Of a DNA stretch of 34,303 bases, positions 27,665 through 30,260 are shown piece by piece (the stretch's first letter is position 1; each line of letters starts with the position of its first letter). The DNA comes from Guptibacillus hwajinpoensis. Its GTDB lineage: Bacteria; Bacillota; Bacilli; Bacillales; Guptibacillaceae. The position numbers and the translations under genes were made by a program. The stretch lies in NCBI RefSeq assembly GCF_001039475.1, contig NZ_LELK01000004.1:1-34303 (forward strand), written 5' to 3'. The notes below the pieces were generated by a model. The model was not told the DNA's origin, did not search any database, and was given only the letters and a program-made list of their open reading frames with translations.

Positions 27665-27697
27665 AAAAAGCAGCGGGATTTGTCCTGCTGCTTTTTT
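27665..27697 (+). terminator. rpsR terminator
   Basis: A stem of about 13 bp with one G-U (AAAAGCAGCGGGA against TCCTGCTGCTTTT), a short loop and six T. It separates the ribosomal operon from the HPr-like gene. Confidence 0.9.
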
Positions 27698-27749
27698 GTA
27701 TACTTGTTTGACCTATTGACTCATGTTCCTAGTAACTTCAGAATATGTG

Positions 27750-27776
27750 GTTTACGACCTCTTGTAGGTCGGGTAT
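27750..27776 (+). promoter_or_regulatory. Candidate general-stress (sigma-B-type) promoter
   Basis: GTTTAC (27750-27755), 15 bases, then GGGTAT (27771-27776). This matches the sigma-B consensus GTTTaa/GGGTAT at 5 of 6 and 6 of 6 positions; the spacer is at the long end. No good sigma-A promoter is visible in the gap. The intervening CGACCT/AGGTCG is also a 6-bp inverted repeat. Transcription would start near 27783, at the foot of the next hairpin. Confidence 0.45.
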
Positions 27777-27781
27777 ATGTA

Positions 27782-27804
27782 TCCTTACAGAGAATCTGTA
27801 AGGA
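27782..27804 (+). promoter_or_regulatory. Hairpin overlapping the ribosome binding site of the HPr-like gene
   Basis: TCCTTACAG (27782-27790) pairs perfectly with CTGTAAGGA (27796-27804) around the loop AGAAT. The 3' arm contains most of the AAGGAGG ribosome binding site (27800-27806) for the ATG at 27818. The folded mRNA would be poorly translated. Confidence 0.7.
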
Positions 27805-27817
27805 GGATGCTAGGATA

Positions 27818-28117
27818 ATGAACAATATTGAAACCAATTCAATTAAGCTAACAGCTAAGCTTAATATGAATTCTCTCATTTCTTTTGTGAAAGAAGCTAA
27901 GTCATTCAAGAGTAACGTAGCCCTCTACCGAAACGGTCATAGTATCAATGGTAAGAACTTAACTAGCGTTATTACATTTAATCTTTCAGTTAAAGAAAAT
28001 GATTCGATTCTTATGATTACAGATGGTGAGGACGCGGATAAGGCATCTACGCATTTAGTGGATTGGCTTAATAAAGAAATGGATAGCGTTTCTGAAACAA
28101 CTTTATCTTTAATGTAG
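27818..28117 (+). CDS. HPr-fold protein lacking both phosphorylation sites
   Basis: A 99-residue protein from the ATG at 27818, with AAGGAGG 11 bases upstream. It aligns by eye along its length with HPr: VALYRNGHSINGKN matches VNLEYNGKTVNLKS, and DGEDADKASTHLVDWL matches the C-terminal helix. The catalytic His15 position is asparagine (N16, in KLNMNS instead of GIHARP) and the regulatory Ser46 position is also asparagine (N47). It therefore cannot act as a PTS phosphocarrier and differs from Crh, which keeps Ser46. Its partner and role are unknown. It is a single-gene unit with its own terminator. Confidence 0.7.
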   Translation: MNNIETNSIKLTAKLNMNSLISFVKEAKSFKSNVALYRNGHSINGKNLTSVITFNLSVKENDSILMITDGEDADKASTHLVDWLNKEMDSVSETTLSLM

Positions 28118-28124
28118 AAAGTAT

Positions 28125-28153
28125 AAGGCTGTTTCCTAAGCAGCCTATTTTTA
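28125..28153 (+). terminator. Terminator after the HPr-like gene
   Basis: AGGCTG (28126-28131) pairs with CAGCCT (28141-28146), then ATTTTT. A short but plausible terminator 8 bases past the stop. Confidence 0.65.
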
Positions 28154-28170
28154 ATGCACACTATTCAAAT

Positions 28171-28250
28171 AAATGAAAAATTTGCTGAAACGGGCAGAAA
28201 TTCTTACAATGTAGTAAGGGGATTTCGACCCGTTTTTAATTTCATAAAAT
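28171..28250. other. Long interrupted hairpin with T run
   Basis: AAACGGG (28188-28194) pairs with CCCGTTT (28229-28235). Inside are AAAT/ATTT and CTTAC/GTAAG pairings around the loop AATGTA. Outside, ATGAAA and TTTCAT can extend it. Five T follow the inner stem on the plus strand and A/T tracts lie on both sides. It could be a bidirectional terminator or part of a small RNA. Confidence 0.5.
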
Positions 28251-28300
28251 ATTGATCTATTAAGTAGGGAATTTATTGATGATCAATGGAGGATTTATAG

Positions 28301-28348
28301 ATAATGGTTCCATTGCTTGGTGGGAGTAGGCGGCTGCTTCCGCTTTAC
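28301..28348 (+). repeat. Array half unit A0
   Basis: Resembles only the 3' half of an A unit (ATGGTTCCA, TGCTTG, then CTTCCGCTTTAC). The 5' half and thus the hairpin are missing, suggesting an eroded end of the array. Confidence 0.7.
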
Positions 28349-28350
28349 GA

Positions 28351-28467
28351 GATCTAGCTACAGTGGCCAGGCTCTCGATCACTTCACCATTACCAATGAA
28401 CACAAAAAGCGTGTTCAAATGAAATGCTCCATCGCTTGTCGGACCTAGACGGCCACTTCCGCTTTAC
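28351..28467 (+). repeat. Array unit A1
   Basis: A-type, 117 bases. The start GATCTAGCTAC deviates from the consensus and the apical stem (ATTACCAATGAACAC against GTGTTCAAATGAAAT) is partly unpaired, so this is the most decayed complete A unit. Confidence 0.85.
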
Positions 28468-28471
28468 ATTA

Positions 28472-28590
28472 GATCCAGCTGCGCGGGCCAAATCCGCAGG
28501 CTGTTTCGCCCAATCGAATGAGACAAAAAGCGTCCCACTCTCATGGGCTCCAACATCCTGCGGATTTAGGCGGGCCCGCTCCCGCTTTAC
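28472..28590 (+). repeat. Array unit B1
   Basis: B-type, 119 bases. A perfect 11-bp inner stem, AAATCCGCAGG with CCTGCGGATTT. Near the apex it has GTCCCA where other B units have GTCTCA. Confidence 0.9.
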
Positions 28591-28592
28591 AT

Positions 28593-28710
28593 GATCCAGC
28601 TGCAGTGGCCAGACCCTCTGTCACTTCACCATTCAATTTGAACACACAGAACGTGTTCAAGTTGAATGGCTCCAGTGCCTGACGGGTCTAAGCGGCCACT
28701 TCCGCTTTAC
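28593..28710 (+). repeat. Array unit A2
   Basis: A-type, 118 bases. Outer stem AGACCC/GGGTCT; apical stem CCATTCAATTTGAACAC with GTGTTCAAGTTGAATGG, 17 positions with one G-U; loop ACAGAAC. Confidence 0.9.
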
Positions 28711-28712
28711 AT

Positions 28713-28831
28713 GATCCAGCTGCGCGGGCCAAATCCTCCGGCTGTTTCGCCCAATCGAATGAGACAAAAAGCGTCTCACTCTCATGGGCTCCAACATCCT
28801 GCGGATTTAGGCGGGCCCGCTCCCGCTTTAC
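28713..28831 (+). repeat. Array unit B2
   Basis: B-type, 119 bases. The inner stem is weakened by TCCTCCGG in place of TCCGCAGG; the rest is as in B1. Confidence 0.9.
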
Positions 28832-28835
28832 ATTA

Positions 28836-28953
28836 GATCCAGCTGCAGTGGCCAGCCCCTCTGTCACTTCACCTTACAACTCGAACACAAAGAACGTGTT
28901 CAAGTTGTAAGGCTCCAGTGCCTGACGGGTCTAACCGGCCACTTCCGCTTTAC
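28836..28953 (+). repeat. Array unit A3
   Basis: A-type, 118 bases. Apical stem CCTTACAACTCGAACAC with GTGTTCAAGTTGTAAGG, 16 of 17 paired; loop AAAGAAC. The stem sequence differs from A2 and A4 on both arms. Confidence 0.9.
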
Positions 28954-28957
28954 ATTA

Positions 28958-29075
28958 GATCCAGCTGCGCGGGCCAAATCCTCCGGCTGTTTCGCCCAAT
29001 CGAATGAGACAAAGAGCGTCTCACTCTCATGGGCTCCAACATCCTGCGGATTTAGGCGGGCCCGCTCCGCTTTAC
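28958..29075 (+). repeat. Array unit B3
   Basis: B-type, 118 bases. Same TCCTCCGG variant as B2, loop AAAGAGC, and the shorter CCCGCTCCGC tail shared with B4. Confidence 0.9.
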
Positions 29076-29079
29076 ATTA

Positions 29080-29197
29080 GATCCAGCTGCAGTGGCCAGG
29101 CTCTCGATCACTTCACCATTACCATTGAACACAAAAAGCGTGTTCAATGGTAATGGTTCCAGTGCTTGTCGAGCCTAACCGGCCACTTCCGCTTTAC
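29080..29197 (+). repeat. Array unit A4
   Basis: A-type, 118 bases. Outer stem AGGCTC/GAGCCT; apical stem ACCATTACCATTGAACAC with GTGTTCAATGGTAATGGT, 18 perfect pairs; loop AAAAAGC. Confidence 0.92.
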
Positions 29198-29199
29198 AT

Positions 29200-29317
29200 G
29201 ATCCAGCTGCGCGGGCCAAATCCGCAGGCTGTTTCGCCCAATCGAATGAGACAAAGAGCGTCTCACTCTCATGGGCTCCAACATCCTGCGGATTTAGGCG
29301 GGCCCGCTCCGCTTTAC
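29200..29317 (+). repeat. Array unit B4
   Basis: B-type, 118 bases, with the perfect inner stem of B1, loop AAAGAGC and the short tail of B3. Its end is two bases from the yybS ribosome binding site AAAAGGAG. Confidence 0.9.
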
Positions 29318-29333
29318 GAAAAGGAGTAGACTA

Positions 29334-30260
29334 TTGAAGAATCATACTGTTAGGCAGTTAGTTGAAGGTGCAGCGCTTGCAGCTGTGTTTGGTGTTTTAT
29401 TTCTTATTACGACTTATGTTCCGCTACTTGGTTCACTGACTTTGTGGACGTTGCCTGTGCCGTTTATTTTGATGATGGTAAGGAACGGTCCTAGTAGTTC
29501 GTTTGTGATGTGGGGCGTTACGATTGTTCTTGGGTTTTTGATTGCAGGTATTCCCTCTCTTATTGCTTCCCTTATGTTTGGAATTGGAGGTTTAACAGCG
29601 GGGTATCTTTATTATCGTCATAAATCAGCACTAGCTGTTTTGATTGGTAGTAGCGTAGCTTATGTGATTAGTCTTGTTCTTGTTTTCATCTCAAGTATTT
29701 TACTGATTGGACAGAATCCTGCTGACCTTGCTATAGAAATGTTTAATCAATCAATTCGTCAGGCTGAAACTTTTTCTAATATACTTGGTCAAGATAGTGA
29801 CCAGTTTGACCAATTAATGCAGCAGGTTGAAATGATTCGCTATCTTATTCCCACCGCTCTTTTTATGCTTGGCGTTGTAATCGCCCTTATTTCTCAACTC
29901 ATTTCTGTTCCGGTATTGAAAAGGGTAGGGGGCTTCAAGCCACCGGTATTTAAACCAATCCGAGAATGGGCATTTCCGAAGAGTTTTTTATGGTATTATT
30001 TAGTTGTTACCATTTTAATGATGGTTGGATTAGAAGAAGGATCTACTGCTTTTGTAGCAGCCATTAATGTTTATTCTGTTTTAAATGCTCTGATTTTCGT
30101 TCAGGGCCTTGCTGTCATTTACTTTTTTAGTCATCAAAAAGGTTGGCCAATTGTTGTGCCAATTCTATTAACTCTTCTTGGTTTCGCATTAACAACATTT
30201 GTTGTTATCATTGGGATTATTGATCTCGGTTTTGAATTGCGTAGAAGAATGAAATCATAG
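29334..30260 (+). CDS. yybS: YybS family membrane protein (DUF2232)
   Basis: A 308-residue integral membrane protein of family DUF2232 with about eight hydrophobic segments. It starts MKNHTVRQLVEGAALAAVFG from a TTG at 29334 with AAAAGGAG 8 bases upstream. In Bacillus it always precedes gdpP; its function is not established, though the fold resembles membrane components of small-molecule uptake systems. The hairpin array ends directly before its ribosome binding site. gdpP follows after 15 bases. Confidence 0.92.
   Translation: MKNHTVRQLVEGAALAAVFGVLFLITTYVPLLGSLTLWTLPVPFILMMVRNGPSSSFVMWGVTIVLGFLIAGIPSLIASLMFGIGGLTAGYLYYRHKSALAVLIGSSVAYVISLVLVFISSILLIGQNPADLAIEMFNQSIRQAETFSNILGQDSDQFDQLMQQVEMIRYLIPTALFMLGVVIALISQLISVPVLKRVGGFKPPVFKPIREWAFPKSFLWYYLVVTILMMVGLEEGSTAFVAAINVYSVLNALIFVQGLAVIYFFSHQKGWPIVVPILLTLLGFALTTFVVIIGIIDLGFELRRRMKS

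Follow-up and report, generated by a model that had tools for sequence, protein, structure and literature searches.

The kinds of element nearest to the hairpin repeats described here are, as far as the cited parts of the literature characterize them, REP elements with their RAYT proteins (PMC8266576), the attC sites of integrons (PMC2727003), the pneumococcal repeats (PMC3049150) and Bhal-1 (PMC2267715). REP elements are palindromes of 20-40 bp with a GTAG or CGTC tag, according to the cited portion of PMC3733652. Like REP elements and REPtrons with TnpA-REP (RAYT), our repeats are interspersed, intergenic and non-autonomous, form a single-strand hairpin and occur in high copy number. Unlike REP elements as portrayed there, the unit of our family comprises 113-115 nt, the GTAG/CGTC tag is missing from the invariant columns of 51 gapless units, the units stand in direct tandem arrays with target flank in the linkers, and there are carriers without Y1 and, in three genomes, no Y1 beside the listed arrays.

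A further comparison is offered by CALIN arrays, which are arrays of integron attC sites, and attC sites have conserved R boxes (GTTRRRY/RYYYAAC). In the part of PMC2727003 on which we draw, attC sites are sequence-variable, structure-conserved imperfect palindromes whose bottom strand folds and which form direct tandem arrays, traits that recur in our repeats, with the minus strand as the better-folding one. In contrast to attC sites, the units here have no gene cassettes between them, copy target flank into their linkers and lack conserved R boxes, the consensus ends of the 51 gapless units reading TCYAGCTGC and CCGCTTT. The MITE-like repeats BOX, RUP and SPRITE of pneumococcus (PMC3049150), bcr1 of B. 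cereus and ERIC are, in the sources as cited, likewise non-coding and mobile, with secondary structure and without a transposase of their own; set against their usual arrangement, our repeats differ by a fixed orientation after terminators, tandem stacks with a truncated first copy and an order-wide spread. As in MITEs, we found no coding capacity, interspersed copies, presence or absence at orthologous sites and a target-site duplication, here of variable length. The ends of our unit are imperfectly inverted (positions 4-16 pair with 100-112), and no autonomous relative was noticed among the sequences examined. Finally, Bhal-1 of B. halodurans is described as an intergenic stem-loop family of 74 bp with 36 copies (Cozzuto 2008, PMC2267715). 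It is thus, like ours, an intergenic stem-loop repeat of a Bacillales genome and, compared by description only, may be part of the hairpin family presented here.

The repeat array ahead of yybS and its family

The window, by which we mean the whole stretch of 34,303 nt that was analysed, carries the gene order ssb, a small HPr-like ORF, the repeat array, yybS (DUF2232), gdpP, rplI and a DnaB helicase gene; genes beside ssb we take to be rpsF and rpsR. The small ORF (27680-28117, plus strand, with an ATG at about 27820) lies between rpsR and the array, contains a PTS-HPr-like domain (Pfam PF00381, 7e-9) and is followed on its 3' side by a terminator-like hairpin found by consensus scan (28126-28146, plus strand). 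The array itself (28306-29315) consists of units of about 114 nt with short linkers between them, all on the plus strand, and contains no ORF of ≥90 aa. It opens with a 5'-truncated first copy or stub (28306-28346, direct repeat D4), which corresponds to the 3' portion of a unit with the end CCGCTTT and has counterparts in other arrays of the family. Then follow, each identified as a model match, A1 (28353-28465, stems mostly broken), B1 (28474-28588, also supported by its fold), A2 (28595-28708), B2 (28715-28829), A3 (28838-28951), B3 (28960-29073), A4 (29082-29195) and the 3'-most unit B4 (29202-29315), again ending in CCGCTTT. Directly 3' of the array begins the yybS-like gene (29334-30260, plus strand; Pfam PF09991, 2.6e-60), whose likely ribosome site AAAGGAG, as read from the sequence, abuts the array end. 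Orthologues of yybS were obtained from seven records named Bacillus sp. NTK071, Pseudalkalibacillus and Alkalihalobacillus. The stretch from the HPr-like ORF to the array includes a block (28176-28235, reading e.g. TTTGCTG...GGGCAGAAATTCTTACAAT...GACCCGTTTTT) which by eye is kept in seven relatives with small differences. This block is probably the yybS promoter together with a small hairpin, and the array would therefore sit in the yybS leader.

The first-pass annotation had pointed out that the apical stems of A2, A3 and A4 differ in sequence yet stay paired, which we can confirm with 16, 16 and 17 Watson-Crick pairs of 17. The arms are CCATTCAATTTGAACAC/GTGTTCAAGTTGAATGG in A2 (16 Watson-Crick pairs and one G.U), CCTTACAACTCGAACAC/GTGTTCAAGTTGTAAGG in A3 (16 of 17, with one C.A) and CCATTACCATTGAACAC/GTGTTCAATGGTAATGG in A4 (17 of 17, or 18 counting one further A-T). 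The swap reported for the outer stem is complete in A4 (AGGCTC/GAGCCT, 6 of 6 pairs) and in A2 (AGACCC/GGGTCT, 6 of 6), but A3 has AGCCCC/GGGTCT with only 5 of 6 pairs. A1, which lies in the same segment and was omitted from that account, opposes AGGCTC to GGACCT and has mismatched apical arms. The statement on the stems is thus right but selective, with A1 broken and one lower-stem mismatch in A3. RNA folding z-scores of -2.19 (A1), -8.88 (A2), -6.73 (A3) and -9.58 (A4) were obtained, and the interleaved B units fold too (z -3.65 to -6.43).

What had been overlooked is that the A units are part of a genome-wide and order-wide interspersed family. At least 93 covariance-model matches in about 32 clusters were found in the genome of the window, and all 14 genomes of the genus (Pseudalkalibacillus, by the names of the orthologue records) carry the family with at least 45-101 matches each, 150 candidates being scored in either case. 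Within the order, 78 of 105 genera are represented among the carriers, with matches in 169 of 249 genomes (up to 15 candidates scored per genome). A phylum-wide sample gave matches in 3 of 299 genomes, all within the order, its listing including one more genome of the order and seven of the same class without a match; its other genomes are more distant, and the class outside the order is thinly sampled. Units from other genera are built alike: covarying stems enclose a conserved loop of the AAARARC type, and CGCTTT closes the unit. Rfam gave no match at gathering score across the window, and a permissive scan of 28200-29400 yielded six matches, all of them microRNA-type hairpins far below gathering. 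The family had no match in plasmid and phage collections, and we found no description of it in the open-access literature; it is hence without a name in Rfam or in the open-access literature searched.

Besides the main types we noted a more distant subtype (L059, L063, L113) with GAGGTCTTAAG...CTTAAGCTTGTCG stems, which has its ends and linkers in common with the main types. By eye, three loci (L064, L065, L071) contain hybrid units, in which the conserved apical loop links the 5' arm of one subtype to the 3' arm of a different one and which cannot form the apical stem. A second interspersed motif with repeats around TATATCCGCG lies upstream of the arrays in L072 and L082, and a similar short repeat, GCTAATA/GGACAATAAA, is present upstream in L057 and near L128.

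Covariation of the stems and the strand that folds

An initial alignment, which covered 28 units from all types, showed compensated double changes in 18 of the 27 predicted pairs. The larger set consists of 51 distinct gapless A-type units from this genome and its relatives, chosen for a length of exactly 114 nt, an anchor motif at each end, the loop letters CAC/GTG and a TCC around position 77. Over 40 pairs, 93.3% of the cells are paired, as compared to 79.6% in shuffled controls and at most 44.8% with slid partners, and compensated double changes were found in 22 of the 40 pairs. Cells changed on both sides number 296 (89.5 when shuffled) and the covariation score is 0.365 (0.114 when shuffled), values reached by none of 500 shuffles in either case; the number of further pair types, on the other hand, was not above the shuffles (151 of 500). 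Columns 14/102 show all four Watson-Crick types (GC 23, CG 9, AT 8, TA 6). The unit filter fixes the letters of pairs 49-51/59-61 and partly those of pairs 4-6/110-112, which hardly vary and contribute no covariation. The comparison of A units from this genome and relatives, put forward with the first-pass annotation as a check, thus revealed compensated changes far above both kinds of control, and its proposal that the folded form is under selection is supported by covariation extending far beyond the array of the window.

The mismatches that remain indicate which strand folds. A fold of the plus strand would tolerate G.U and not A.C, and since the reverse was observed, the strand whose fold selection sees is the complement (minus strand) of the strand read, a point that the first-pass annotation had missed. 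A-type units, 107 of the 264 distinct full units under the same anchor choice as in the covariation set, were considered well-paired with at most three mismatches; these contain 29 A.C against 3 G.U (22:3 in distinct contexts, p 1.6e-4) when five column pairs that pair badly are left out, a choice made after seeing them, and 50 against 8 with all columns retained. Among units that had no part in these counts, which supply 96 distinct apical contexts, those with the same loop gave 23:2 (unfiltered 26:4), C-type units 8:0 (unfiltered 19:5) and units from distant genera 10:1, while the B-type units (2:0 to 3:2) are uninformative. Without the pairing filter the bias in A-type units is weak (40:28, p 0.18, with the five columns out; 74:34 with all columns), as would be expected if decayed copies are neutral. 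These gapless-unit counts replace an earlier count (26 A.C to 2 G.U isolated in the apical stem, 24 G.U to 5 A.C in the lower stem), which was distorted by a gapped alignment and by a few column pairs. Folding energies agree in direction: the RNA minimum free energy is lower on the minus strand in 256 of 263 distinct units, with DNA parameters it is lower in 107 of 107 A-type units, and the consensus energy is -55.7 on the minus as compared to -35.9 on the plus strand. G.U or G.T is accepted by RNA and by single-stranded DNA alike, so that either molecule fits.

Insertion sites and polarity of the arrays

At the window locus arrays are present in four of the relatives (L051, L054, L055, L056) and absent from two (L052, L053), and by eye L050 has only a truncated stub. 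When the flanks of ten clusters from the genome of the window were sought in relatives, 16 of 31 orthologous regions, spread over seven of the ten loci, were without an HMM hit, where empty may mean never inserted or lost. At the L074 locus the empty site of G001 reads ...GTCGCTTTTGTTATTCCC and the occupied form ...GTCGCTTTTGT[units]CCGCTTTTGTTATTCCC, with GTCGCTTTTGT ahead of the first unit and CGCTTTTGTTATTCCC behind the last in occupied sites. A target-site duplication is present at the L074, L124 and L125 sites, and by eye the duplicated lengths vary from about 9 to 15 bp including CGCTTT. The linkers resemble the array's own 3' flank (mean common prefix 3.37 as compared to 1.93 permuted, reached in 0 of 2000 permutations; 100 arrays, orthologous ones being counted separately and hence not independent), also where neighbouring units differ in subtype (L079), and the units therefore appear to duplicate target flank. 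The first linker has only 0 or 1 nt in common with the 3' flank in 15 of the 100 arrays, and GTTAGAT occurs in some linkers only.

For the anatomy of the arrays, six copies linked to rRNA or tRNA or to contig edges (L085, L086, L087, L147, L164, L166) were left out, the rRNA context being confirmed for the last three, and 104 of the 105 arrays counted contain a full unit. In 87 of the 104 an xGCYTT motif precedes the first full unit by no more than 22 nt (control 98 of 2869). The first hit is visibly 5'-truncated to the HMM in 36 of 104 arrays, whereas no last hit is 3'-truncated and only two internal hits are truncated; L066, L140 and L173, by contrast, have a first hit that ends prematurely. 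Stubs too short for the HMM are common by eye in the clusters of the window's genome (31 of 32 read, L087 left out). Stubs standing alone were sought there by the A-type end pattern, which gave 71 hits, two of them outside known clusters, and three control hits. One of the two, L128, is a genuine stub-only site 3' of a terminator; the other, L129, was dismissed as a chance match, its surroundings being without similarity. A single genuine site is less than would be expected from simple random 5'-truncation. At one and the same locus the first unit keeps its 5' end in G002 (L113) and is truncated in the genome of the window (L063), so that erosion of the first copy accounts for some of the truncation. 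The first full unit is less stable than the last in 48 of 74 arrays and more stable in 24 (Wilcoxon p 0.022), although the HMM scores of first and last units do not differ (38 to 33, p 0.40). Taken together, a polarity of decay along the arrays is suggestive.

Regarding the orientation of neighbouring ORFs, which were called by simple frame scans rather than a gene finder (several plus-strand distances of 0-2 nt are open-frame artefacts), the upstream ORF points in the plus sense of the element in 69 of the 85 arrays with both neighbours called, one of 86 arrays being undetermined. In 63 of 86 arrays (control 24 of 169) the 180 nt upstream contain a terminator-like hairpin. Of 85 arrays, 46 have a plus-strand ORF as their nearest downstream one. 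A minus-strand frame at least 80 codons long has its stop 0-7 nt away from the end of the array in 34 of 86 cases (4 of 193 control anchors), counting real stops only; 12 stops lie inside the array end. The 34 stops, from the genome of the window, G008 and G009, adjoin (G)AAAAGCGG, with which the minus strand starts. Copies in the 23S-5S spacer were found at five loci (L147, L164, L166, L188, L189), where they start 7-8 nt past the 23S end and have their minus strand in the rRNA sense; five high-scoring matches were among those listed for G095. An orientation set by the replication strand, an impression from strand lists, was dropped, as the 23S-5S copies oppose the rRNA and most other arrays follow the upstream gene.

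Mobile hairpin, minus-strand RNA and other readings

With moderate confidence, we regard the repeat as a hairpin element that is non-autonomous and strand-specific, has a length of about 115 nt and stacks at gene ends, the array of the window being made up of eight full units and a truncated first one. Such an element would move as a folded single (minus) strand whose fold is recognized by a putative trans-acting enzyme. Its target would be the 3' arm of a terminator with its T-tract (CGCTTT), either used or mimicked; insertion would duplicate the CGCTTT-bearing target, and stacks would arise as further copies insert, one after another, at an array's 3' end. If only foldable copies are mobilised, compensated stems would spread, while copies that cannot fold, such as A1 and the hybrids, would decay. 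A mobile hairpin whose minus strand has to stay foldable would explain the covariation, the strand bias, the decayed copies, the empty sites and the target duplication together.

The main rival is a function of the minus strand as RNA, for instance in the 3' UTR of a convergent gene or in pre-rRNA, where usefulness to the host would let selection keep the stems. The tolerance of G.U-type mismatches, the lower RNA free energy and the internal mispairs, which read as purine-purine on the minus strand, all suit such an RNA, as do the minus-strand frames that end next to 34 of 86 arrays (4 of 193 in the control) and the five spacer loci in rRNA sense. We nevertheless hold this reading to be unlikely, as presence at a locus varies between species, 46 of 85 arrays have their nearest downstream ORF on the plus strand, no promoter-like site was found on the minus strand in 28305-29600, and in the window it is plus-strand RNA that would arise if transcription of the yybS operon comes from upstream. 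Compensated stems can also be imagined without any selection on the fold, if DNA template switching between the hairpin arms (quasi-palindrome correction) regenerates complementarity; it has been proposed, and in the cited part of PMC8794818 is supported, as a source of compensatory changes. Consistent with it, the pair table contains many swaps of transversion type (G-C to C-G, A-T to T-A), and among unit pairs differing at five sites or fewer, 5 of 9 double changes are of this type. These nine, one in each of 9 out of 56 comparisons, are however single, isolated pairs that changed doubly and stayed paired, not blocks. In addition, two mispairs persist that copying from arm to arm would erase: T32.C79 in 28 of 28 units of all types chosen regardless of it, both columns being invariant, and in 51 of 51 A-type units, where the right-hand letter is partly imposed by the filter; and T23.C89 in 51 of 51 A-type units and in 25 of 28 of all types, the remaining three having G-C. 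Neither does template switching predict strand-asymmetric mismatches. It is therefore disfavoured, with little probability left to it, and the regeneration by a copying mechanism that the first-pass annotation had offered beside selection has the conserved mispairs and the mismatch asymmetry against it.

As regards the enzyme that would move the hairpin, group IIC introns insert after terminators, and an RNA-templated element using target-primed reverse transcription would share this placement as well as a fixed 3' end with variable 5' truncation (36 of 104 first hits as compared to no last hit) and a target duplication of varying length. We consider this improbable: RVT_1 has no match in the genome of the window and none in 10 of the 14 genomes of the genus (it is present in four), on which ground we reject mobilisation by a reverse transcriptase as the main reading. 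Moreover, the A-type pattern yielded a single genuine stub-only site, the differing truncation of L063 and L113 points to partly later erosion, and the folding strand is the minus strand. Mobilisation of a REP-type element by RAYT (Y1, TnpA-REP) proteins appears very improbable to us, even though each of the 14 genomes of the genus has 2-6 Y1 matches, many of them within reading frames that stay open for about 190-300 codons, and the REP model, in the cited part of PMC8266576, also uses a single-strand hairpin substrate. In G000, G008 and G009 no Y1 lies beside the listed arrays (the nearest, a partial match of 84 bases, is about 5 kb away, the others more than 20 kb), and 12 of 20 named Y1-less genomes of the order carry the element, with 40 more Y1-less genomes outside this count. 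The Y1-less carriers and the distance of Y1 from the listed arrays rule out RAYT as a requirement, and neither Y1/RAYT nor reverse transcriptase is convincing as mobiliser. One RAYT-like Y1 protein of 206 aa is encoded at L130:1369-1989, directly upstream of an ORF which presumably is dprA-like.

Returning to the mobile, minus-strand hairpin, we tentatively put forward, as a possibility short of an expectation, that it represents an unnamed kind of gene-less mobile element of about 115 nt with order-wide distribution, which would be folded on its minus strand, home 3' of intrinsic terminators, duplicate the CGCTTT target and stack in polar arrays whose units record the order of insertion, the old and eroded ones lying 5' and the new and intact ones 3'; its mobilising enzyme would be something other than Y1/RAYT or a reverse transcriptase. 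Stem covariation, strand choice and mobility can be told apart in the large natural data set that the family provides, and it poses the testable question of which enzyme moves a gene-less hairpin found in most sampled genomes of the order. Being located at gene ends, in 23S-5S spacers and, in the window, probably in an operon leader, the arrays may affect expression.
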